A stretch of DNA of 37,577 nt from Bryobacteraceae bacterium (GTDB taxonomy: Bacteria; Acidobacteriota; Terriglobia; Bryobacterales; Bryobacteraceae), in NCBI GenBank assembly GCA_025055455.1, contig JANWXD010000008.1, positions 79,086-116,662 on the forward strand, written 5' to 3'. The notes beneath the pieces are model-generated. The model searched no databases and had not been told where the DNA came from. It saw only the letters and a list, made by a program, of their open reading frames with translations. A program made the translations under genes and the position numbers. Shown one piece after another: positions 507 to 10,955 of this stretch; the stretch's first letter is position 1; each line of letters opens with the position of its first letter.

Positions 507-522
507 GCCGTTAGCTAACGGC
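507..522. repeat. 16-bp perfect palindrome between convergent transporter genes
   Basis: GCCGTTAGCTAACGGC reads the same on both strands. It lies between the gltS stop (495) and overlaps the stop codon of the converging symporter (515-517). As RNA it could form a 6-bp stem with an AGCT loop from either strand, which would suit a weak bidirectional terminator. There is no T-run after it on either strand, so a protein-binding site is equally possible. Confidence 0.35.
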
Positions 523-1822
523 CCGCACGGATTTCAACCAGCTTTTCCGACCGGGCAATGCACAAGGCGGTCGCCACGTCGCCGATCACGTTCAGCGTGG
601 TGCGGCACATGTCCAGCAGGCGGTCTACGCCCAGAATCAGCGCGATGCCCTGGGCCGGCACATTCACGGTCTGCAACACCAGCGCCAGCAGCGGAATCGA
701 GCCCGCCGGCACGCCCGCCGCGCCGATGGCCGTGATCACAGCCAAAACCAGAACCACGATTTGGTCAGCGAGCGAGAGGGACACGCCGAAGACCTGCGCC
801 AGGAACAGAACCGTGACGCCTTCGAACAGCGCGGTGCCGTGCATGTTGGCCGTCGCCCCCAGCGGCAGCACGAAGCCCGAGACGGACCGTGGGATGCCCA
901 GCGTGGTCTCGCTGACGCGCAGACTGGTGGGCAGCGTGGCGTTGGAGGAGCTCGTGGAAAAGGCGGTGATCATGATGACCCAGACGCTGCGGAAAAACCG
1001 GACCGGCGATTCGCGGGCGAGCACGCGCACCAATACCGAAATCGTGCCGAACAAGTGAACGCACAGGCCGGCGACTACCACAATCACGTACAGGGCCAGG
1101 GCCCGGAGCAGGCCGAGGCCGAAGCGCGAAGCGGTAGCGAACACGAGCATCCCCACGCCCAGCGGGGCGAGCTTCATGACGAAGCCGATGATACGAACCA
1201 TCACCTCCGCCACGGCTTCCAGCACGTCGCTGAGGGGGCGGGCTTTTTCGGCCGGTAGTCGGGCCAGCGCCGCGCCGAACACCAAAGCGAAGAAGATCAG
1301 CGCCAAGAAGTCGCCCCGTGCCGCCGCGTCGAGCGGGTTGCGCGGGACAATGTTGATGAAGGTCGTCAGGCCGAAACCGGCGAAACCGGCCACCGTCTTC
1401 TCGGCTGCCCCCCGGTATTCGGCCAGCACCTGCTCGGTCACTGCCGGAGGGAGACCCGCGCCCGGCCGGACCGTGTTGACCAGCACCAACCCCAACGTGG
1501 CCGCCAGCGCAGTCCCTACCAGGAAAAGTGCCAGCGTCTTGCCGAGGATCGGGCCCAGGCGGTGCAGTTGTCCGAGCTGCGCCACACCCAACACCATCGT
1601 CGAAAAGATGAGCGGGACCACGACCATAAACAGCATCCGGAGCCAGACTTGTCCCACGGGCTCGGCCACGTTGCGGACGATCCACACCAGGTGCGGGTGA
1701 CCTCCGGCGAAGCTATTCGCCGCAAGACCGAGAACCACGCCGGCGACCAGCGCCAGAAAGATCAGGCGGGTCGGAATGAAGGCCGCATCGGCTGCTTTGG
1801 GGGCGTCTCCGGGGCGTGTCAC
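515..1822 (-). CDS. Dicarboxylate/amino acid:cation symporter (DAACS family, GltP/DctA-like)
   Basis: This 435-residue polytopic inner-membrane protein is of normal length for the DAACS family, which imports dicarboxylates or acidic and neutral amino acids with protons or sodium. The serine-rich re-entrant loop FSTSSSNATLPTSL is present, followed by LPLGATANMHGTALFE, the substrate/cation site of TM7, and a glycine-rich AAGVPAGSIPLL hairpin. The C-terminal block GVDRLLDMCRTTLNVIGD contains the conserved Asp, Arg and Asn residues that hold the substrate amino and carboxyl groups. The start is GTG at 1822 without a clear Shine-Dalgarno sequence; no better start is available. The substrate cannot be fixed from sequence. 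It converges with gltS, another glutamate-type carrier of unrelated fold. Confidence 0.88.
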   Translation of the reverse strand: MTRPGDAPKAADAAFIPTRLIFLALVAGVVLGLAANSFAGGHPHLVWIVRNVAEPVGQVWLRMLFMVVVPLIFSTMVLGVAQLGQLHRLGPILGKTLALFLVGTALAATLGLVLVNTVRPGAGLPPAVTEQVLAEYRGAAEKTVAGFAGFGLTTFINIVPRNPLDAAARGDFLALIFFALVFGAALARLPAEKARPLSDVLEAVAEVMVRIIGFVMKLAPLGVGMLVFATASRFGLGLLRALALYVIVVVAGLCVHLFGTISVLVRVLARESPVRFFRSVWVIMITAFSTSSSNATLPTSLRVSETTLGIPRSVSGFVLPLGATANMHGTALFEGVTVLFLAQVFGVSLSLADQIVVLVLAVITAIGAAGVPAGSIPLLALVLQTVNVPAQGIALILGVDRLLDMCRTTLNVIGDVATALCIARSEKLVEIRAGR

Positions 1823-1927: not shown

Positions 1928-3274
1928 TCAGCCCCGTGACGACGACGCAGCCTGGAGCATCTCCCGCTCGATCCGTTCCACGTCGCGCTTCATGAACAAG
2001 ACTGCCGCGGCCAGCAGCAACACTGCCGCCAGCAGGTACACGCTGGAGGTCAGCGCAATCGCCAGTCCCAGGCTTTCCCGCTGGGCGATCAGTCCGATGA
2101 TGACCGGCGCGGTCCCGCCACCTCCCAACCAGCCCACGCAGTTCATGAAGCCCGCAGCGGTTCCCCGTGCTTCGGGTGGCATCACGTCGTAGACCGAGGC
2201 GAAGATGTTGGCGTCGTAGAGGCCCTTGAACAAGCCCCAGGCGGTGAGAGCGGCCACCAGAACGGCAACCGAGGGCGTCAGGCCGCACAGCGCCACGAAC
2301 GGAGCCCCGCCCAGCACACCGAGGGCCTGTACGAGCGGCCGGCCACGTGGCGTGCGCCGCCGCAGCGCATCCGCCATCCAGCCGCCGAGAGGAGAGCCGA
2401 CCATGCTCGCCAACTGGACGAAAAGCGTCGCGGTCAGCCCCGCCATGGCCAAGCTCATCTGAAAACGGTCGTAGAGAAACTTGGGCATCCAGGACAGCAA
2501 CACCACCGCGACGAAATTGGCGCAAACGAAAGCACCCATGAGCAGCAGCGCGCTGGGGGTCCGCGCGAGCACTCGGAAAAACTCGGAAAGCGGCAGACTC
2601 GCCCGAAGAGGCGTTGCGCCCGCTCCCGCCTCCGCACGGTCCGCCGCACCCCGGGGCGCTTCGTGGAGGAAACGATGGAGGACTACGCCGAGCAGGATTC
2701 CGAGGGCGCCGAAGACGATGAAGGACCAGCGCCAGCCGTACCGCTGGCCGATCCATCCGGCAAAGAAGCCGCCTCCGATAGTGCCGACGTAGACGCTGGT
2801 TTGATGCAGTCCCATGGCGCGCGAGCGCGTGGCTTTGCCGTGGTAATCGCTGATCAAGGACATGGAGGCGGGATAGTAAAACGTTTCTCCCAATCCTTCC
2901 GCGGCGCGAAACAACAGGAGGTGGCGAAAATTACGCGACAGGGCAGTGAGGGCGCAGATCAGGCTCCAGATGTGGAGTCCGGCCAGGATCGCCGTCTTGC
3001 GGCGCACGCGGTCCACCACGTAGCCGGCCAGCGGGGCCGCGAGTCCGTAGGTCCAGGCGAAGGATGAGCCCAGCAGCCCGAGCTCGACGGGGCTGAGCCC
3101 CATCTCCTGTTCGAGGAGAGGAAAAACCGAGAAGATGGCCTGCCGGTCCGCGTAGTTGAAAAACGAGATCCACCACAGCATGGCCACGAGGTACCACTTG
3201 TAACGGGGCGACGGCGGGCGCCAAGAAGCACCCGACTCCGGTTTGCCCGGCAAGGGCTGGCCGTCCCGCTTCAT
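1928..3274 (-). CDS. MFS transporter (ACS-like), coupled to FCD regulator
   Basis: The 448-residue, 12-helix major facilitator resembles anion:cation symporter family members that import sugar acids, acidic sugars and similar anions. The N-terminus has the typical opening WISFFNYADRQAIFSVFP and the loop 2-3 motif GYVVDRVRRK. A second copy of that motif, GGWMADALRRR, follows the central loop. The frame extends further upstream, but ATG at 3274 is chosen because it overlaps the regulator's TGA as ATGA (3271-3274), a translational-coupling arrangement. Cotranscription with an FCD-type regulator, and divergence from a TonB receptor plus a sialidase-like enzyme, suggest that it carries the released product inward. 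The substrate is inference only. Confidence 0.85.
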   Translation of the reverse strand: MKRDGQPLPGKPESGASWRPPSPRYKWYLVAMLWWISFFNYADRQAIFSVFPLLEQEMGLSPVELGLLGSSFAWTYGLAAPLAGYVVDRVRRKTAILAGLHIWSLICALTALSRNFRHLLLFRAAEGLGETFYYPASMSLISDYHGKATRSRAMGLHQTSVYVGTIGGGFFAGWIGQRYGWRWSFIVFGALGILLGVVLHRFLHEAPRGAADRAEAGAGATPLRASLPLSEFFRVLARTPSALLLMGAFVCANFVAVVLLSWMPKFLYDRFQMSLAMAGLTATLFVQLASMVGSPLGGWMADALRRRTPRGRPLVQALGVLGGAPFVALCGLTPSVAVLVAALTAWGLFKGLYDANIFASVYDVMPPEARGTAAGFMNCVGWLGGGGTAPVIIGLIAQRESLGLAIALTSSVYLLAAVLLLAAAVLFMKRDVERIEREMLQAASSSRG

Positions 3275-4032
3275 TGGGACCGTCCCGGGGCCGCCAATGG
3301 CGCGGTGAGCAGATCCTGCAACTCCGACTCCCGCTGCCATTGGTCGAACAACTCGAGCCGTTCCTGAAGGCTGGCGCGGATGTGCTCGCCGAGCAGTTGC
3401 GCGGCTCGCTCCCCGTCGCCCGACATCAAGGCCTCTACGATCCCAGAGTGATACTGATAGATCCGCTCGAGCAGGGCCGCATCATGTCCCGGCCGCTCGA
3501 AGGAAAAGATCCGCGTCAACAGCCGCGTGTCGGTGACGAGCTTCATCAGCCGGCGGTTTGACGCCCCACGCAGGAGCAGCAGGTGAAACTTCATGTCGGC
3601 GGAGAGGAACTCCTCCATCTCCATCTCGTTGAGCCGCTCGCGCCCAGAGGTGCGCAACAGGTCCGCGAAAGCCCGGATACGTTCGCACAGCTCGCGCAGA
3701 AGGCCGCGATCGGCTGGCGGCAAGCCGCGGCAGGCCGCTTTGCGCACGGCGTAGACCTCGAGCGCCTCCCGCAGCTCGTAGAGTTCCACAATGTCGTCCC
3801 GTTCCAGGCTGGTCACCACCACACGACCTCCAGGGGCGTGCTCCAGCCAGCCTTCCGCCAGCAACTGGTGGATGGCCTCCCGGATCGGAGTGCGGCTCAT
3901 GCGCGTCTCGCGGGCGAGCGCCAGTTCCGACAGCGTGGTTCCCGGACGGATCATCCCGGAGAGAATGCGGTGCTGGATATAGTGGTACGCCTTGCGCCGC
4001 AAGCTTTCGTCTTTTCGCCGGGCGCTAGCCAT
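3271..4032 (-). CDS. GntR-family transcriptional regulator, FCD (FadR-type) subfamily
   Basis: From ATG at 4032 the protein has 253 residues, normal for the subfamily. Residues 10-76 form the winged helix-turn-helix, with the recognition region MSRTPIREAIHQLLAEGWLE. Residues about 83-230 form the helical FCD ligand domain. Its metal site is visible as Asp146, His150, His195 and His217, implying a small carboxylate or sugar-acid effector bound through a metal. The frame stays open upstream to 4356, but that extension runs through the intergenic promoters and the TonB receptor start and is not protein-like, so 4032 is preferred. The gene is coupled to the MFS transporter and divergent from the TonB receptor. 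It probably represses both by binding between them. Confidence 0.88.
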   Translation of the reverse strand: MASARRKDESLRRKAYHYIQHRILSGMIRPGTTLSELALARETRMSRTPIREAIHQLLAEGWLEHAPGGRVVVTSLERDDIVELYELREALEVYAVRKAACRGLPPADRGLLRELCERIRAFADLLRTSGRERLNEMEMEEFLSADMKFHLLLLRGASNRRLMKLVTDTRLLTRIFSFERPGHDAALLERIYQYHSGIVEALMSGDGERAAQLLGEHIRASLQERLELFDQWQRESELQDLLTAPLAAPGRSQ

Positions 4033-4078
4033 GAGCCTGGAATCGTCCCAGCGGGAAGTTGGCGGAGGAAAATTCGGG

Positions 4079-4107
4079 TTGACAGACAGGGCGAGCCTGC
4101 ATACAAT
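4079..4107 (+). promoter_or_regulatory. Sigma70-type promoter for the TonB receptor
   Basis: TTGACA at 4079-4084, a 17-base spacer, then TACAAT at 4102-4107. This is a perfect -35 and a 5/6 -10 at optimal spacing. It points towards the receptor start at 4196, which carries GGAGGT at 4185-4190. In such a GC-rich window the match is unlikely to be chance. Confidence 0.7.
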
Positions 4108-4113
4108 AAGTAT
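4101..4113. promoter_or_regulatory. Candidate operator for the FCD regulator
   Basis: ATAC-AATAA-GTAT is an inverted repeat with 4-bp arms and a 5-bp centre. The right arm extends into GTATAC, a core common in FCD-GntR operators. It covers the -10 elements of both divergent promoters, so a bound dimer would block both. Assignment to the neighbouring regulator is inference from position. Confidence 0.5.
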
Positions 4114-4137
4114 ACACTTGGCGTGCGCCCGGTACAA
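4109..4137 (-). promoter_or_regulatory. Candidate promoter for the FCD regulator-MFS operon
   Basis: Read on the minus strand: TTGTAC (4137-4132), a 17-base spacer, TATACT (4114-4109). The -10 is good and the -35 weak. It directs transcription towards the regulator start at 4032. Its -10 lies one base from the -10 of the opposite promoter, so the two should compete for polymerase. Confidence 0.5.
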
Positions 4138-4184
4138 GCGCGCTCCGTCGCGTCGCCGGCTCGCGCGCAAGCTCGTCCGAACGT

Positions 4185-4190
4185 GGAGGT
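4185..4190 (+). promoter_or_regulatory. Ribosome binding site of the TonB receptor
   Basis: GGAGGT lies 5 bases before ATG 4196. It decides this start over ATG codons further upstream in the same frame, which would translate the promoter and operator. Confidence 0.75.
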
Positions 4191-4195
4191 GCGTC

Positions 4196-7100
4196 ATGGG
4201 AGCGAAACCCAAGATCCTTCGGAGCGGCATCGTCCTGATCGCCTGCGCCGGCGCCACGCTGGCGCAAGTCACCACCGGGACCATCACCGGCCGCGTCACC
4301 GACCCCAGCGGCGCGGCGGTGCCCAAGGCGGAAGTGACGGTGACGGAACAAAACACCGGCCTGAGTCAGCGGACGGAAACGGGAGACACCGGCCGGTACA
4401 CGGTTCCGCTGTTGAAACCGGGAACGTATACGGTCACCGTCAAGGCGCCGGGTTTTTCGACGAGCGTGCGCCGCGACCTGATCCTGCAAATCCAGCAGAC
4501 TCTCGACGTCGACGTCCAGCTGGCCGTCGGAGAGGTCGCCCAGGAGATCACCGTCTTCGGGGGCGCGCCGTTGGTGCAGACTTCGACCTCGGACGTCGGC
4601 AACGTCATTCCCATGGACCGCATCCAGCAGCTGCCGCTCAACGGGAGGAATTTTTCCCAGTTGGCCTTGCTGGCCCCGGGCACGAACCCCGGCCCGGTGG
4701 GCGGCATCCGGACGCAAGGCGCCGGCAACGAGACCCAGAGGGCCGGTGCGGAGATCATCGCCAACGGCGGCCGCGGCAGCTTCACCAACTTCATGATCGA
4801 CGGCATTGACAATCGCGACCAGACCGTGGCCACGATCAAGGTCTTCCCTGCCGTTGAGGCCATCTATGAGTTCAAGATCCAGACGAGCAATTACGATGCG
4901 GAGTTTGCCGGCGGCGGCGCCGTGGTCAACGTAATCACTCGCTCCGGCTCGAACCAGTTCCACGGTTCGGTGTTCGAATTCTTGCGTAATTCCAAGCTGG
5001 ACGCCCGGCGCTTCTTCGACCCGGGCAAGCCGGGCTTCCGCCACAACCAGTTCGGATTCGCCCTCGGCGGGCCTATCGTGCGCAACAAGACTTTCTTTTT
5101 CGGCGACTATGCTGGCTTCCGCTCCCGCCGCGAGGAAACGTTCCTGCTGTCGGTGCCGTCGGTGCCCGAACGCAGCGGCGACTTCTCGCAGAGCCCGAAC
5201 CGCATCTTCGATCCCCTGACGTTCGACCCAGCCACCGGCACGCGTCAACCGTTTGCCGGTAACCGCATCCCGGCATCCCGCATCGATCCTGTGGCCAACC
5301 GTCTGGTGGCTCTTTGGCCGCTGCCGAACCTGCCAGCGCGCCGCAACAACTTCGTGCACACGCCCCTGCGGGCGGTGACCCAGGACCAGTTCGACGTGCG
5401 AGTGGATCACAATCTGTCGTCCAAAGACAATTTCTTTGCCCGGGTCACTTATGGCCGCGCGTTGGTGCGCTGGCCGGCGACGCCCGCCTTCCGGGACGGC
5501 CAGCCCAATCCTCCGGCGTTCATGATCGTGGGCACGTCGCCCCGGAACAACGACGCCCCCAGCTTCCAGGCCACGTGGCAGGAAACGCACGTATTCAACC
5601 CGACCTTGGTGAATCACTTCGCCGTGGGCTACACGCGGCTCGTGCTGCGCGCCACGCCACTCGACTTCGGACAGAACACGGCGGAGCGGCTGGGGTTGCG
5701 GGGCGCCAACACCGAGCCGATCGGCTCCTCGATGGCCAACCTCAACGTCGCCGGCATTCAGGCCATTACGCCCAGCAGCTTCGTGCCGCTGATTGCACCT
5801 CAGAACACTTGGCAGATCAACGACACGTTAGCCTGGACGCGGGGCGCGCATTCGCTCAAATTCGGCTTCAGCGTCATCCGGAACAATTTTGGATTCTTCC
5901 AGCTCCGGGCGCCCGCCGGGGCGTTGGACTTCGGCGGGGTCTACACCAACAATCCGGCCAGTCCCGGGGGCACGGGCGAGGGGTTCGCCGATTTCCTGCT
6001 CGGTCTGCCCAACGGCTCGACCAAATCCACTTTCACGCGGGGCACACCGCACGTCTTCTACACCGAGTTCGGGGCCTTCGTCCAGGACAACTGGAAAGTC
6101 CACCCCAGGCTCACCCTGAACCTGGGCCTTCGGTATGACCTTTTCACCTCGCCGTATGAAAAGTACGACCGCCAGTCGAACTTCAATCCGCGCACGGCCA
6201 GCATCGATCTGGCAGGCACGGGCGGCATCTCGCGCGGGATCTTGGACGTGCGGACCAACAACTTCGGCCCGCGCGTGGGGTTCGCCTGGACGTTGACGCC
6301 GCGCACGGTGCTCCGCAGCGCCTGGGGTCTGTTTTTCTTCAACGAGCAAGGCACGGGCTCCTCGGCCCGGCTGTTCATCAATTTCCCGTTCGCCGCGGAA
6401 TATTCCGTCTCGTGCAGCGCGACTGCGCCCTGCTTGCGCACGCAGGATGGCATTCCGCTGCCCGCGCAGGCGCAGCCCATCGCGGTCTACATCCCGACAG
6501 CCAACGAGACCTCCAACATGCAGCAGTGGAACCTGACGCTGGAACGGCAACTTTCGGAGACGTTGGTTGTCCGGGCCGCCTACGTGGCTTCCAAAGGCAC
6601 CCACTTGTTCATCGCGCTCGACGAAAACGTGGCGGTCCCCGGACCCGGGCCCATCGCGCCGCGGCGGCCGTTCCCCGCCTACTCGACCATTTCGGCTTGG
6701 GAGCCTCGGGGCAATTCCAGCTTCCAGTCGTTGCAGCTGTCTTCGGAAAAGCGCATGTCCCACGGCTTGTCTTTCCTGGTGTCCTACACGTGGGGACGCT
6801 CGCTCGACTATGGCGCCGGCGGCAATTCCTCGGACGGCGACCCGCGCATCAACATCCAAAATCCGCGCAATCTGCGGGCCGACCGGGGGCTTTCCAACTT
6901 CGATTACCGGCACCGGCTGAGCATCGGCTATATCTTCGAACTCCCGTTCGGCCGGGGCCGCCGATGGATGCACTCGGCTCCGGCGGTCGTGGAGCAGGTT
7001 CTGGGCGGTTGGCAACTGAACGGCATCGTCACCGCGCAATCGGGGGCTCCCACCACGCCCGTGCTCGCTACGCCGACAGCCAACACCGGCACCTTCACCC

Positions 7101-7444
7101 GTCCCAACCGCGTCTGTGACGGGAACCTGCCGGAAGCGCAACAAACGGTCGAGCGCTTCTTCGACATCGGCTGCTTCGTCAACCCGCCGGCCTTTCAGTT
7201 CGGCAACAGCGGACGCAACATCATCATCGGGCCGGGGCTGGCTACCTGGGACTTCGCCGCCCAGAAAAACTTCCGATTGACCGAACGAGTGGGACTCGAG
7301 TTCCGAGGCGAATTCTTCAATCTGTTCAACCGCGCCAACTTCGGGCTGCCGAACCGCTTTATCGGCTCCCGCGCGGCCGGAACGATTACGCGGGTGATCA
7401 CGAACGCTCGCGAAATTCAATTCGCGCTGCGACTGCGCTTCTGA
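4196..7444 (+). CDS. TonB-dependent outer-membrane receptor, Oar-like with carboxypeptidase-regulatory domain
   Basis: The start at 4196 gives 1082 residues. Residues 1-23 are a signal peptide ending ATLAQ. Residues about 27-110 are a carboxypeptidase-regulatory (beta-sandwich) domain, opening GTITGRVTDPSGAAVPKA. A plug domain follows, with the conserved QLPLNGRNFSQL and FMIDGIDNRDQ motifs. The rest is a 22-strand-type barrel with GSVFEFLRNSKLDAR and many alternating aromatic strands, ending in LRLRF, an outer-membrane insertion signal. Such Oar-like receptors are greatly expanded in Acidobacteriota and import oligosaccharides or other large ligands with TonB energy. It is divergent from the FCD regulator and has its own promoter. 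The sialidase-like gene follows 22 bases downstream, so the two are probably cotranscribed. The ligand is unknown. Confidence 0.92.
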   Translation: MGAKPKILRSGIVLIACAGATLAQVTTGTITGRVTDPSGAAVPKAEVTVTEQNTGLSQRTETGDTGRYTVPLLKPGTYTVTVKAPGFSTSVRRDLILQIQQTLDVDVQLAVGEVAQEITVFGGAPLVQTSTSDVGNVIPMDRIQQLPLNGRNFSQLALLAPGTNPGPVGGIRTQGAGNETQRAGAEIIANGGRGSFTNFMIDGIDNRDQTVATIKVFPAVEAIYEFKIQTSNYDAEFAGGGAVVNVITRSGSNQFHGSVFEFLRNSKLDARRFFDPGKPGFRHNQFGFALGGPIVRNKTFFFGDYAGFRSRREETFLLSVPSVPERSGDFSQSPNRIFDPLTFDPATGTRQPFAGNRIPASRIDPVANRLVALWPLPNLPARRNNFVHTPLRAVTQDQFDVRVDHNLSSKDNFFARVTYGRALVRWPATPAFRDGQPNPPAFMIVGTSPRNNDAPSFQATWQETHVFNPTLVNHFAVGYTRLVLRATPLDFGQNTAERLGLRGANTEPIGSSMANLNVAGIQAITPSSFVPLIAPQNTWQINDTLAWTRGAHSLKFGFSVIRNNFGFFQLRAPAGALDFGGVYTNNPASPGGTGEGFADFLLGLPNGSTKSTFTRGTPHVFYTEFGAFVQDNWKVHPRLTLNLGLRYDLFTSPYEKYDRQSNFNPRTASIDLAGTGGISRGILDVRTNNFGPRVGFAWTLTPRTVLRSAWGLFFFNEQGTGSSARLFINFPFAAEYSVSCSATAPCLRTQDGIPLPAQAQPIAVYIPTANETSNMQQWNLTLERQLSETLVVRAAYVASKGTHLFIALDENVAVPGPGPIAPRRPFPAYSTISAWEPRGNSSFQSLQLSSEKRMSHGLSFLVSYTWGRSLDYGAGGNSSDGDPRINIQNPRNLRADRGLSNFDYRHRLSIGYIFELPFGRGRRWMHSAPAVVEQVLGGWQLNGIVTAQSGAPTTPVLATPTANTGTFTRPNRVCDGNLPEAQQTVERFFDIGCFVNPPAFQFGNSGRNIIIGPGLATWDFAAQKNFRLTERVGLEFRGEFFNLFNRANFGLPNRFIGSRAAGTITRVITNAREIQFALRLRF

Positions 7445-7466: not shown

Positions 7467-8558
7467 ATGCGCCACCCACAGCGGAGCGTGCGGCTGACGT
7501 TGGGTGCGGGGCTCGTTGCGATGCTTGTGGTGCCGCTCCAGGCCCAGCCCCTGCGCGAATTCGTGTTCGAGAAAGCCCCGTTCCCCTCCTGCCATGCCTC
7601 GACGCTCGTGGAGCTTCCCGACGGGGAGATCCTCGCCGCTTGGTTCGGGGGAACTGCCGAAGGGCGGCCCGATGTGGCGATCTGGGCAGCCCGACGAACC
7701 GCCTCCGGCTGGTCGCAGCCCATCGAGCTGGCGCGCGAGCCGGAAGTTCCCACGTGGAACCCGGTACTGTTCTACACCGCTGACGGCCGGTTGTGGCTGT
7801 ACTACAAGTTCGGGCCGAGCCCGCAAACTTGGACGGCGGCCCGCCGCGCGAGCGCGGACCACGGACGGACATGGTCCGCCATCGAGCACCTCCCCGCCGG
7901 ACTGTACGGTCCGATCCGCAGCAAGCCGCTGCTGCTGCCGGACGGGACGCTCGTCTCGGGCACGTCCGTCGAAAGCTACCGGTCGTGGGCTTGCTGGATC
8001 GAGCGCAGCGCCGACCATGGCCGGAGCTGGCAACGCATCGGCCCGATCACCGTCGCCCGGGACGTTCCCCGCCGGGATGCCGCCGGGCCGGCGCCCGCCG
8101 AAGTTCCCGGGTCCTCGGAATGGAAGCGGATCGACGGCATCATTCAACCGGCGGTCGTGCCGTTGGGCGGCAACCGATTGCGGTTCTACGCGCGGTCCAC
8201 GGCCAGTATCGGACGCATTTGCGTGGCCGATTCCTTCGACGACGGCCGCAGCTGGACGCAGGCCCGTCCGATCGACTTGCCCAACCCCAATGCCGCCGTG
8301 GACGCGATCCGCTTGGATGATGGCCGCATCGTGCTGATTTACAATCACAGCGACCGGGCGCGGACGCCCCTCAATCTGGCGGTGAGCCGCGACGGCGAGC
8401 GCTTCCGCAGCTTTTACACCCTCGAGGATCAGCCGGGCGAATATTCCTACCCCGCCCTGATTCAGGCGCGCAACGGCGACCTGCTGATCACCTACACCTG
8501 GAGGCGACAGCGGATCGCGTTTGTGCGGTTTCCGCTCGGGTTGGTGCCGGCGGAGTGA
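7467..8558 (+). CDS. Secreted sialidase-fold (BNR/Asp-box) protein
   Basis: The protein has 363 residues with a signal peptide of about 26 residues ending LQAQ. It is a six-bladed sialidase-type propeller: three Asp boxes are clear (SADHGRTW at 129-136, SADHGRSW at 181-188, SFDDGRSW near 250), and the BNR_2 family opening ILAAWFGGTAEG is present. Canonical GH33 sialidases have a FRIP motif and an arginine triad; no FRIP is visible, so true sialidase activity is doubtful. Related sialidase-fold enzymes act on other glycosidic bonds. It follows the TonB receptor by 22 bases, suggesting that it trims a ligand the receptor imports. The fold is confident; the reaction is not. Confidence 0.8.
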   Translation: MRHPQRSVRLTLGAGLVAMLVVPLQAQPLREFVFEKAPFPSCHASTLVELPDGEILAAWFGGTAEGRPDVAIWAARRTASGWSQPIELAREPEVPTWNPVLFYTADGRLWLYYKFGPSPQTWTAARRASADHGRTWSAIEHLPAGLYGPIRSKPLLLPDGTLVSGTSVESYRSWACWIERSADHGRSWQRIGPITVARDVPRRDAAGPAPAEVPGSSEWKRIDGIIQPAVVPLGGNRLRFYARSTASIGRICVADSFDDGRSWTQARPIDLPNPNAAVDAIRLDDGRIVLIYNHSDRARTPLNLAVSRDGERFRSFYTLEDQPGEYSYPALIQARNGDLLITYTWRRQRIAFVRFPLGLVPAE

Positions 8559-8642: not shown

Positions 8643-10955
8643 CTATTTTTCTTGGCGGATCAACCAAACTTCCGCCACCTGGCAGCCCCGCCCGTTGCCG
8701 CCGAGTCCCAGCTCGCGGTACCAGCGCAGCTCCAGGGTGCCGGCTGCCGTAGCCTCGCGAGGGATCTCGAATTCGATCGGCCGCACCGGCGCGGGCTTTT
8801 CGATCAGCGGGTGAATCTCGAACCGGTCGTTGGCGACCAGCCGGATCTTACGGGTCGGACTGTCCCCGGCGTAAACGACGCGGATTTTGTACCGAGCCGT
8901 GGGATCGAGGTTGTCGTACCGAAGGGTCAGCGGCTGGTCGTTCAAGGCCTCTGCGTGATCCCACCAGGATTTGCGCCATCCGGGTCGGTAGGTAAAGCCG
9001 ACGAGGGGCGATTCCAGAAACGCAGGATCCGCTTCGTAAGATTTCGTCCGGACCAAGTGGGGCTGGCGGGCCGGATTGCCCAGGTCGTCATAGAAGCCGC
9101 CCGGTCCGGGATTGCTCCAGTTGAGGATCTCTTCGATGGCGCGCAGGCGGGCGGCCTCGTCGGCCAGCGCGCGGATCTCGGCGAACCGGTCCTTGAGCCA
9201 CAGCCGGTTGTTGAGCGGAACATCCACGGTGTCCAGATTGGCGCCGCGGTCCACCGCGATGGCCTTGTAACGGGGCACGCTGAGTTGCATGCGGATGCTT
9301 TGGAACAAGGCCTCGGCAAGTTCGAAGATGCGGGCGCGCCAAGCCGGCGCCGGCGGCTTGGAGGCGGCTTGGTCCAATAGGGCTTCGGCGCGGCCCACGG
9401 CTGCCAGCGAGCCCAGCGCACGAGCCTCCCGCAGCGTTTCCATCGCCTTTTCTTCGAGCTCCGTCTCGTAGAGCAGGCGGCGTCGCGTGTAGGCGTCATA
9501 GTAGGCGCGGTAGAGCGCTTGCTGGAACCGCCAGTTGGCGAGCAATTGCGGCGGAGCGGCTCGCTCCATTGCCTGGAACTGTTCCAGGGTCGTGTAGACG
9601 CCGCTGTTGGTCGCCAAGGGCCCACGCCAGTTCCGCTCCAGAGCGAGCAGGCCCTGAGCGAAACTTTCGGTGAACGGCTCGCCGATGAAAAAGCGGCTGT
9701 AGTCGCGAAGAATTTCGATAACGGGCCGGTCCGGATCCCAGCCGAGGCCGCTCCAGACGAACTTGTTGACGTCGTCGTTGACACCTTCCGAATACGTCAG
9801 GAATCCGACGGTGTAGGGAGCGAGCAGGCGGAAGATGGCGGCCTGGTCCCGCGGCCTGGGGTTGATCGTTTCGCGTCCTTCGGTGACGGCGTAGGCGGTG
9901 TCCCAGTCTGGCACGGGATACTGGCAGCGAAGGCTGTGGGTGATGTCGGGGTAATAACGAATGGGATACCGCTCCGGCACCGCACGGCGGAGCTCCGGCA
10001 GGCTCATGCGGATTTGCGGGCCAAAGACCACGCCCGCCAGCCAAGCCGGCTGCTCGTCGCGGAGGATGCCCAAAAACTCCTCCATCCACGCCTGGCTGAA
10101 TCCCTGCGGCGACACCCACATCGTCGCCTTGGGGTGGTAGCGGCGCAGGTTGGCCGTCTGTTTTTCGAGCAACGCCATGAGGTGCCGGGGTTGCGTGTGG
10201 CCCGGATCCCCGCCCGGCACGAACACCGCGTCAATGCGGGGCAACTGGCGGAAGACCTCGCCCCATTCTTTGAGCGCGAACGCCACCGTGTTCGGATCGG
10301 AATAATCTTTGTCGAGCGCGGGATACCAGATCCAGACGTCCAAACCGTAGGAGTCTGCCAGCCGCGACATTTCCACCATCATGTGCATGGGCGGCAGAGG
10401 GAAGTGGGGACTGTCGGCGGCGTCGTCCGAGCGCGGTGGAATCAGCTCGACCGCGTTGGCGCCGAACAGGGCCAGTTCGCGCAGGTATTGGTCCCACATG
10501 GCCACCGTGAAGCCGTCGTAGGAGTTCGTCTTGGGACGATAGCCGAGCTGGTGGCCGCGCAAGCGGTAGCGGGGCGCGGTCGCGACGTGGAATCCGTCGG
10601 GAAGCTCCACGCCGTGTCGGCGTATCCGCAAGGCGCTCAACAGGCGCCCGACGCCGTAAAGCACCCCGCGCGCGTCGTTGCCCGTCACCGTGACTGTTGG
10701 GCCGTCGGTCGTGATCCGGAAGCCCTCCGGCGGCCCGGAGCCTCGTGCAAGGAGCACGACCGGTGCACCGCCGCGGGGGCGGCTCGTCGCCACCGGCCAG
10801 CGAACCTGCGAACGCTTCTCCACTTCTTCCACGAGCACCGCGGCAGCTTTCTGCTCGAGAGATCCCAGGCCATGCGAAACCACCACGGTGGCCCGAGTCA
10901 GGTCCAGTGCGAGGGCTGAGGCCGAGCAGCACAAGAGCAACAACGCGCGGTTCAT
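8643..10955 (-). CDS. Secreted glycosidase-like protein (alpha-glucuronidase/GH20-type N-domain plus TIM barrel), specificity unknown
   Basis: The protein has 770 residues, a signal peptide of about 16 residues and a GGAG-type ribosome site before ATG 10955. Residues about 17-125 form the alpha/beta domain that precedes the barrel in GH20, GH67 and GH84 enzymes, including ITTDGPTVTVTGNDARGVLY. A TIM-barrel-like region follows, with RGHQLGYRPKTNSYD, ANAVELIPPRSDD, DVWIWYPALDKDY and DAVFVPGGDPGHT. A helical segment comes next, and a beta domain after about residue 640 may bind carbohydrate. Acidic residues in the PPRSDD and GVNDDVNKF motifs are candidate catalytic groups. I do not recognise the exact family; it may be annotated as alpha-glucuronidase-like. 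It lies last in a five-gene minus-strand cluster. Confidence 0.7.
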   Translation of the reverse strand: MNRALLLLCCSASALALDLTRATVVVSHGLGSLEQKAAAVLVEEVEKRSQVRWPVATSRPRGGAPVVLLARGSGPPEGFRITTDGPTVTVTGNDARGVLYGVGRLLSALRIRRHGVELPDGFHVATAPRYRLRGHQLGYRPKTNSYDGFTVAMWDQYLRELALFGANAVELIPPRSDDAADSPHFPLPPMHMMVEMSRLADSYGLDVWIWYPALDKDYSDPNTVAFALKEWGEVFRQLPRIDAVFVPGGDPGHTQPRHLMALLEKQTANLRRYHPKATMWVSPQGFSQAWMEEFLGILRDEQPAWLAGVVFGPQIRMSLPELRRAVPERYPIRYYPDITHSLRCQYPVPDWDTAYAVTEGRETINPRPRDQAAIFRLLAPYTVGFLTYSEGVNDDVNKFVWSGLGWDPDRPVIEILRDYSRFFIGEPFTESFAQGLLALERNWRGPLATNSGVYTTLEQFQAMERAAPPQLLANWRFQQALYRAYYDAYTRRRLLYETELEEKAMETLREARALGSLAAVGRAEALLDQAASKPPAPAWRARIFELAEALFQSIRMQLSVPRYKAIAVDRGANLDTVDVPLNNRLWLKDRFAEIRALADEAARLRAIEEILNWSNPGPGGFYDDLGNPARQPHLVRTKSYEADPAFLESPLVGFTYRPGWRKSWWDHAEALNDQPLTLRYDNLDPTARYKIRVVYAGDSPTRKIRLVANDRFEIHPLIEKPAPVRPIEFEIPREATAAGTLELRWYRELGLGGNGRGCQVAEVWLIRQEK

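Follow-up and report, generated by a model that had tools for sequence, protein, structure and literature searches.

Introduction

Regulators of the FadR subfamily bind sites made of TKGT and ACMA halves, with GT and AC separated by 3 nt or, for several groups, by 2 nt, and with weaker boxes located 7–12 nt from the centre, and common double sites close to the middle of a divergon are considered to control the two operons jointly (PMC4494728, available part of the text). As for promoters, bidirectional ones are common in E. coli, with opposed -10 boxes and, commonly, 10, 18 or 23 bp between the starts; in the five cases tested, acrA/acrR among them, the basal activity was too low for competition between polymerases, and activation of one direction could repress the other, as described in the available sections of PMC12825309.

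The window analysed here (the whole stretch of DNA, 37,577 nucleotides long) belongs to a genome of 3.9 Mb in 145 contigs that carries one further FCD gene, and the closest named relatives in a scan with its regulator are Bryobacteraceae (Acidobacteriota). The gap at positions 4033–4195 resembles FadR-subfamily divergons in that an FCD gene diverges from a transport operon, with paired GT-N2-AC sites near the middle of the gap and a weaker box at 7–12 nt from the centre, and it differs from those in the available text of PMC4494728 in its acidobacterial host, in its GTATAC/GTCGAC core and in its TonB-type receptor; Acidobacteriota are named nowhere in the main text of that paper. With the E. 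coli bidirectional promoters, as far as the accessible text of PMC12825309 describes them, the gap shares the opposed -10 boxes, with predicted starts 12 bp apart against 10–23 bp there, and with acrA/acrR in particular the position of a regulator next to a transport gene, whereas in the present gap one base separates the -10 boxes, with no overlap, one -35 box is perfect and the starts are predicted ones. The NanR protein of E. coli is also of the GntR type, with closely repeated sites and a sugar-acid effector, but its operator is (GGTATA)3 and not a set of palindromic cores at 11 bp (PMC8012715, in the part available). A NanR-type system was rejected for this locus, as GGTATA is absent from the gap and the NanR model gave 37.1 bits against a cut-off of 260. 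In the literature searched, mostly papers readable without subscription, we found neither an acidobacterial FCD/TonB system nor a report of GTATAC as an FCD/GntR operator.

From the sequence, we consider it probable that the locus is a FadR-type divergon in which a double site placed on a bidirectional promoter co-represses a single uptake locus, its two sides likely responding jointly to a nutrient signal. The arrangement itself is a known one, here in a well-built form, and not a new type of switch.

Results

Gene Organization

As shown in Table 1, the gap looks like the head of two apparent operons of one uptake locus, each of them predicted to be co-transcribed. The regulator has an N-terminal GntR winged helix (52.9 bits, Pfam cut-off 27) and a C-terminal FCD domain (72.6 bits, cut-off 24.3), as in members of the FadR (FCD) subfamily. 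None of the NCBIfam equivalog models reached its cut-off with this protein, the best being a PhnR-like one (79.2 against 271.5 bits), and ten distinct chains of solved structures were found similar to it with E values up to 1e-6, with 7xp0 as the best. Residues D146, H150, H195 and H217, which we take to be the metal-ligand positions (Asp plus three His) of a metal-type FCD domain, are invariant in all the 20 sequences aligned (20 of the 44 orthologues described below). Its start codon is the ATG at 4032, and the homologues from loci L004–L006 align from residue 1.

The genes for the permease and the regulator overlap by 4 nt and probably form one operon, of which the symporter gene, found 105 bp after the permease, is a possible third member. 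The best NCBIfam match of the permease is a D-galactonate transporter, below the cut-off. On the other side, the receptor gene starts with the ATG at 4196, with GGAGG ahead of it, and the protein matches OMP_b-brl_4 (871 bits) and CarboxypepD_reg (80.9 bits) above their Pfam cut-offs, with the TonB_dep_Rec barrel model just under its own (25.9 against 27). The BNR_2 gene is probably in the same operon as the receptor, and homologues of it are the divergent neighbours of the FCD gene in L040, L044, L105 and L110. The GH20b-domain protein possibly belongs to the same pathway, as the FCD gene has homologues of it on its downstream side in L007/L036, L011/L042, L013 and L122. Those following the FCD gene in some relatives show about 56% identity to it, and an alpha-galacturonidase model matched the protein itself weakly, at E 8.8e-5 and far under the cut-off. 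At gathering scores, Rfam gave no matches in the window.

Table 1. Coordinates of genes, predicted promoters and putative operator cores in the window.
Feature	Positions	Strand	Remarks
Sodium:dicarboxylate symporter-family gene	515–1822	-	SDF, 370 bits
MFS permease	1928–3274	-	MFS_1, 225 bits
GntR/FCD (FadR-subfamily) regulator, 253 aa	3271–4032	-	Pfam FCD and GntR above cut-off
Predicted receptor-ward sigma70-type promoter, TTGACA-N17-TACAAT	4079–4107	+	Consensus match 11/12
Putative operator core 2, GCATAC (GTATGC on the minus strand)	4099–4104	.	11 bp from core 1
Predicted regulator-ward promoter, TTGTAC-N17-TATACT	4109–4137	-	Consensus match 8/12, weak -35
Putative operator core 1, GTATAC (GT-N2-AC palindrome)	4110–4115	.	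In 16/44 upstream regions
TonB-type outer-membrane barrel protein, N-terminal carboxypeptidase-regulatory-like domain	4196–7444	+	
BNR_2 protein	7467–8558	+	BNR_2, 263 bits; 22 bp past the receptor gene
GH20b-domain protein	8643–10955	-	Pfam; homologues 3' of the FCD gene in relatives

Promoter Elements

Direct reading of the gap confirmed the elements listed in the initial annotation, that is, the hexamers, both spacers, the single base between the -10 boxes and the ATAC/GTAT arms. The plus-strand promoter has TTGACA at 4079–4084 and, after 17 nt, TACAAT at 4102–4107, combining a perfect -35 box, the one found in the pair, with the best spacer length. The minus-strand promoter reads TTGTAC at 4137–4132 and, again after 17 nt, TATACT at 4114–4109, with 3/6 consensus bases in its -35 box. 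The two -10 boxes are separated by position 4108, and the arms of the inverted repeat are ATAC (4101–4104) and GTAT (4110–4113), with N5 in between. Taking the usual distance of 7 bp from the -10 box, the predicted starts are 4114 (plus) and 4102 (minus), 12 bp apart.

A scan for promoters of at least 9/12 over the first 12 kb found one, against a shuffle mean of 1.3, which is the level of chance, and this threshold leaves the minus-strand promoter (8/12) unlisted. Promoters of at least 11/12 did not appear in any of 60 dinucleotide shuffles of the whole window (65.5% G+C), and face-to-face pairs with a summed score of at least 19 were found once in the window and never in 60 shuffles, for a pattern that was picked after looking. 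Within 260 bp there is no FCD-ward alternative better than the minus-strand promoter.

Conservation of the Putative Operator

Orthologues of the regulator were collected by profile searches of 237 genomes of the family and 399 of the class, plus a scan of named contigs. Its clade was found in 19 and 36 of these genomes, respectively (hits above 290 bits), and below the clade the next full-length hits of the family and class searches were under 130 bits and the fragments under 171. At most 30 loci were taken from each genome search. The 44 distinct orthologues used here, window included, are those loci whose profile hit exceeded 250 bits, reduced to distinct ones by identity over a 100-residue stretch; five clade-level hits of the class search (in G417, G390, G265 and G449, and a second one in G510) are outside this set, and the close kin retained in it (L018, L019 and L094; L115, L119 and L120) make its counts something other than numbers of independent events. 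DNA upstream of the gene is scant in L004, L009 and L094, among others. The hits under 250 bits, 28 in total, were set aside, and the 27 with enough upstream DNA served as a comparison group. In a quick tree of the 44, in which 15 of the 41 inner branches are open, the window protein groups with L004–L006, L014 and L035 (97), and both L003 (the window) and L014 sit on long branches.

Among the 64 six-base palindromes, the two most enriched in the 250-bp upstream regions of the 44 orthologues were GTATAC (16/44, against a shuffle mean of 1.1 and a maximum of 3) and GTCGAC (24/44, mean 3.4, maximum 8), the next being AAATTT with 8 against 3.1. Compared with the rest of the same loci, their density upstream was 17 times higher for GTATAC and 8 times for GTCGAC. 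The form TGT-N2-ACA was present in 26/44 regions (shuffle mean 2.6, maximum 7), while its version with 3 nt, TGT-N3-ACA, was near chance (4 against 2.1), and neither strict core was found in 10/44 orthologues. In the window, core 1 reads A-GTATAC-A on the plus strand, a partial fit to TKGT-N(2 or 3)-ACMA. It covers the minus-strand -10 box and falls between the plus-strand -10 box and its predicted start, and core 2, a weaker match one base off the palindrome, overlaps the plus-strand -10 box, in such a way that the pair GCATAC-N5-GTATAC (4099–4115) spans both -10 boxes.

A spacing of 11 bp between sites is also enriched. Pairs at this distance were found 13 times against 3.7 expected (sd 0.9, maximum 7) in 200 shuffles with the strict sites held in place. 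A strict core plus a looser one (GTNNRC or its complement) at N5 was present in 10/44 regions against a mean of 0.15 and a maximum of 1 in 200 shuffles; this pattern was defined once the data had been seen, and three of the ten regions belong to close kin. Just 2/44 regions have two strict cores at N5, and GTNNAC-N5-GTNNAC is found in 4/44 (shuffle mean 0.12, maximum 2), N4 being nearly equal with 3. Read on the minus strand, the window has GTATAC-TTATT-GTATGC; two pairs of this kind, with different spacers, are present in L014. As in double-site divergons, the 11-bp pair lies near the middle of the gap, with its centre (4107) 75 bp from one start codon and 89 bp from the other, the second site being weak. 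In L107 (-214/-204) and L112 (-218/-208), in FCD orientation, two GTCGAC cores lie 10 bp apart between the FCD gene and a divergent TonB-type gene, slightly tighter than the 11-bp pair.

These data modify the shared operator of the initial annotation, whose place over both promoters holds, with a GT-N2-AC core that recurs in relatives, and whose form does not. What is conserved is two GTATAC-like palindromes at a distance of 11 bp, ATAC-N5-GTAT being the inside of the GCATAC-N5-GTATAC pair, and the ATAC-N5-GTAT arms are kept in 2/44 loci (the window and L014), which means one of the seven other FCD/TonB divergons. From its adjacency and its conservation across the clade, the palindrome pair is very probably the binding site of the regulator itself.

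It could be argued that the palindromes are mere -10 boxes and the repeat a by-product of two adjacent ones, considering that TATACT overlaps the GTATAC of the window and is itself enriched (11/21, mean 0.7). This we find very improbable, because GTCGAC, which contains no -10 box, is equally enriched, because the 11-bp pairing is enriched as well, and because TATAAT appears 3 times in the 44 regions, on both strands, against 20 for GTATAC.

Beyond the orthologues, GTATAC was found upstream of 6 of the 27 FCD genes of the comparison group (mean 0.6, maximum 2), so that the motif may extend to FCD regulators more widely. In the genome of the window, GTRTAC-N5-GTATGC has a single match with zero mismatches, located in the window, which is also the only place with a zero-mismatch match to GTRTACNNNNNGTATGC. 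When up to two mismatches were allowed, GTRTACNNNNNGTATGC matched at 150 places and the reversed control at 127. Six of the eight places with one mismatch (L058–L062 and L065) have an unconvincing context, so no wider regulon is claimed. The one other GTATAC of the window (4426–4431) lies within the carboxypeptidase-regulatory-like domain of the receptor and is probably a codon effect.

Residue 45 of the regulator, which precedes a conserved SRTP, is S or T mostly in proteins with GTCGAC and I or M mostly in those with GTATAC only (Fisher 2.7e-4 in the alignment of the 44), the exceptions being L107, L112 and L122 (I, GTCGAC only) and L113 (S, GTATAC only). Since a better score is reached by 13 other columns and the class of this residue changed twice on the tree, the covariation is confounded by descent and was discarded as independent protein–DNA evidence.

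Divergent Loci in Relatives

A divergent gene within 450 bp upstream of the FCD gene was of the TonB type in 8/44 loci (window included) and of the BNR type in 4/44, those with a divergent TonB-type gene beyond 1 kb (L035, L039 and L088) not being scored as such. A strict core is kept in 12/12 of these loci, and in 22 of the 32 that have no such homologue within 450 bp. Eleven of the 12 have a predicted promoter towards the receptor or the BNR gene (at least 7/12), and L112 has none. In 7/12 (L010, L014, L015, L040, L044, L105 and L110), a strict core falls on one of the hexamers of the predicted divergent promoter, and in six of those seven the -35 box reads TCGACA and is thereby the operator's right half, which means that the promoter call in these six leans on the letters of the operator. 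Regarding the others, the strict core is just past the predicted start in L107 and L122, and the promoter spacer of L016 has only a looser GTACAC core. The L016 FCD/TonB divergon has a TTGACA-N17-TACAAT promoter identical to that of the window, with the same spacing. In L040, L044, L105 and L110 the predicted BNR-ward -35 box, TCGACA, coincides with the right half of the TGTCGACA operator, and its position inside this operator makes the BNR gene probably part of the regulon. Promoters towards the FCD gene were mostly poor, with two of the 12 loci scoring 10, eight scoring 7 or 8, and two without any. The -35 boxes of L016 overlap back to back, and L014 could be face to face, with a poor regulator-ward promoter. 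The feature that recurs among these loci is an operator in the gap, in most cases at a promoter, and the face-to-face layout is not kept.

The weakness of the regulator-ward promoter would also fit a control in one direction only, in which this promoter is unused, the FCD gene starts elsewhere and the site represses just the receptor-BNR operon. In support of it, TTGTAC has 3/6 consensus bases with nothing better towards the FCD gene in 260 bp, and FCD-ward promoters are poor in 10/12 divergent loci; nevertheless, the strict cores in the 22 of 32 loci lacking a close divergent TonB-type or BNR gene fit autoregulation, and we hold one-way control to be unlikely.

The initial annotation had proposed that the overlapping promoters make the expression of regulator and receptor mutually exclusive, with the operator as selector. 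The two promoters point towards each other one base apart, so the footprints of the polymerases must overlap, the receptor promoter is close to the consensus, and strong activation in one direction can repress the other according to the available text of PMC12825309, where, however, basal competition is absent in 5/5 E. coli cases. Moreover, since the pair lies over both -10 boxes, bound FCD dimers should halt transcription in both directions, so that the operator would block the two promoters instead of choosing between them. Gene order also speaks against the exclusion, with the BNR gene after the receptor and the 4-nt overlap between regulator and permease, because exclusion would part the receptor from the permease, which makes little sense for uptake, and the layout is not kept in relatives, such as L016, where the -35 boxes overlap back to back. 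We regard exclusive expression as improbable enough to set it aside.

Discussion

According to the co-repression that we favour, the FCD protein would bind the GCATAC-N5-GTATAC pair as dimers, the double site overlying the -10 boxes of the bidirectional promoter, and without ligand these dimers would stop the polymerase both ways, in such a way that the regulator-permease(-symporter) and receptor-BNR genes would be repressed together. Binding of a carboxylate in the metal site of the FCD domain would release the protein and switch the uptake locus on. Once the operator is free, the strong receptor promoter would outdo the weak regulator promoter, keeping the synthesis of repressor low, and a one-sided occlusion of the latter by the former is possible. 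The position of the pair over both -10 boxes, together with the low basal competition and the one-way repression upon activation in E. coli, points to co-repression and co-induction with, possibly, such one-sided occlusion.

A stronger version would be an all-or-none switch, in which two dimers on one helix face, 11 bp apart, shut the bidirectional promoter, and the freed receptor promoter occludes that of the regulator, so that the cell is starved of repressor and the locus locked on, with an 11-bp rule that stayed unchanged in the clade across Terriglobia as the core moved between GTATAC and GTCGAC. We see this version as improbable.

An acid is a plausible ligand for the FCD protein, judging from the invariant metal-ligand positions, the D-galactonate match of the permease and the acid-type genes in the neighbourhood. 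Downstream of the FCD gene, L036 has a GH20b-like gene, an HpcH/HpaI aldolase and a permease; L042 has a GH20b-like gene and a permease, and a DHDPS-family gene is found nearby in L039 and L043. A Pfam search with 30 neighbour proteins of relatives gave a mixed picture beyond the acid-type enzymes, with 9 proteins without a match and the rest including GMC oxidoreductase, IclR, PhyH, aminotransferase, aldehyde dehydrogenase, GH92/GH125 and fucose-isomerase-like proteins, among others. The neighbours agree with sugar-acid catabolism, and many others point no single way.

The locus also illustrates that the look of a promoter region, however striking, can bring a toggle to mind when the order of the genes speaks against one. 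The analysis provides a putative operator for a clade of FCD regulators, and would place a TonB-type receptor, a permease and a BNR protein under one signal. Acidobacterial uptake loci are many and mostly without an assigned substrate, and such a link to one signal would help to assign substrates to them.
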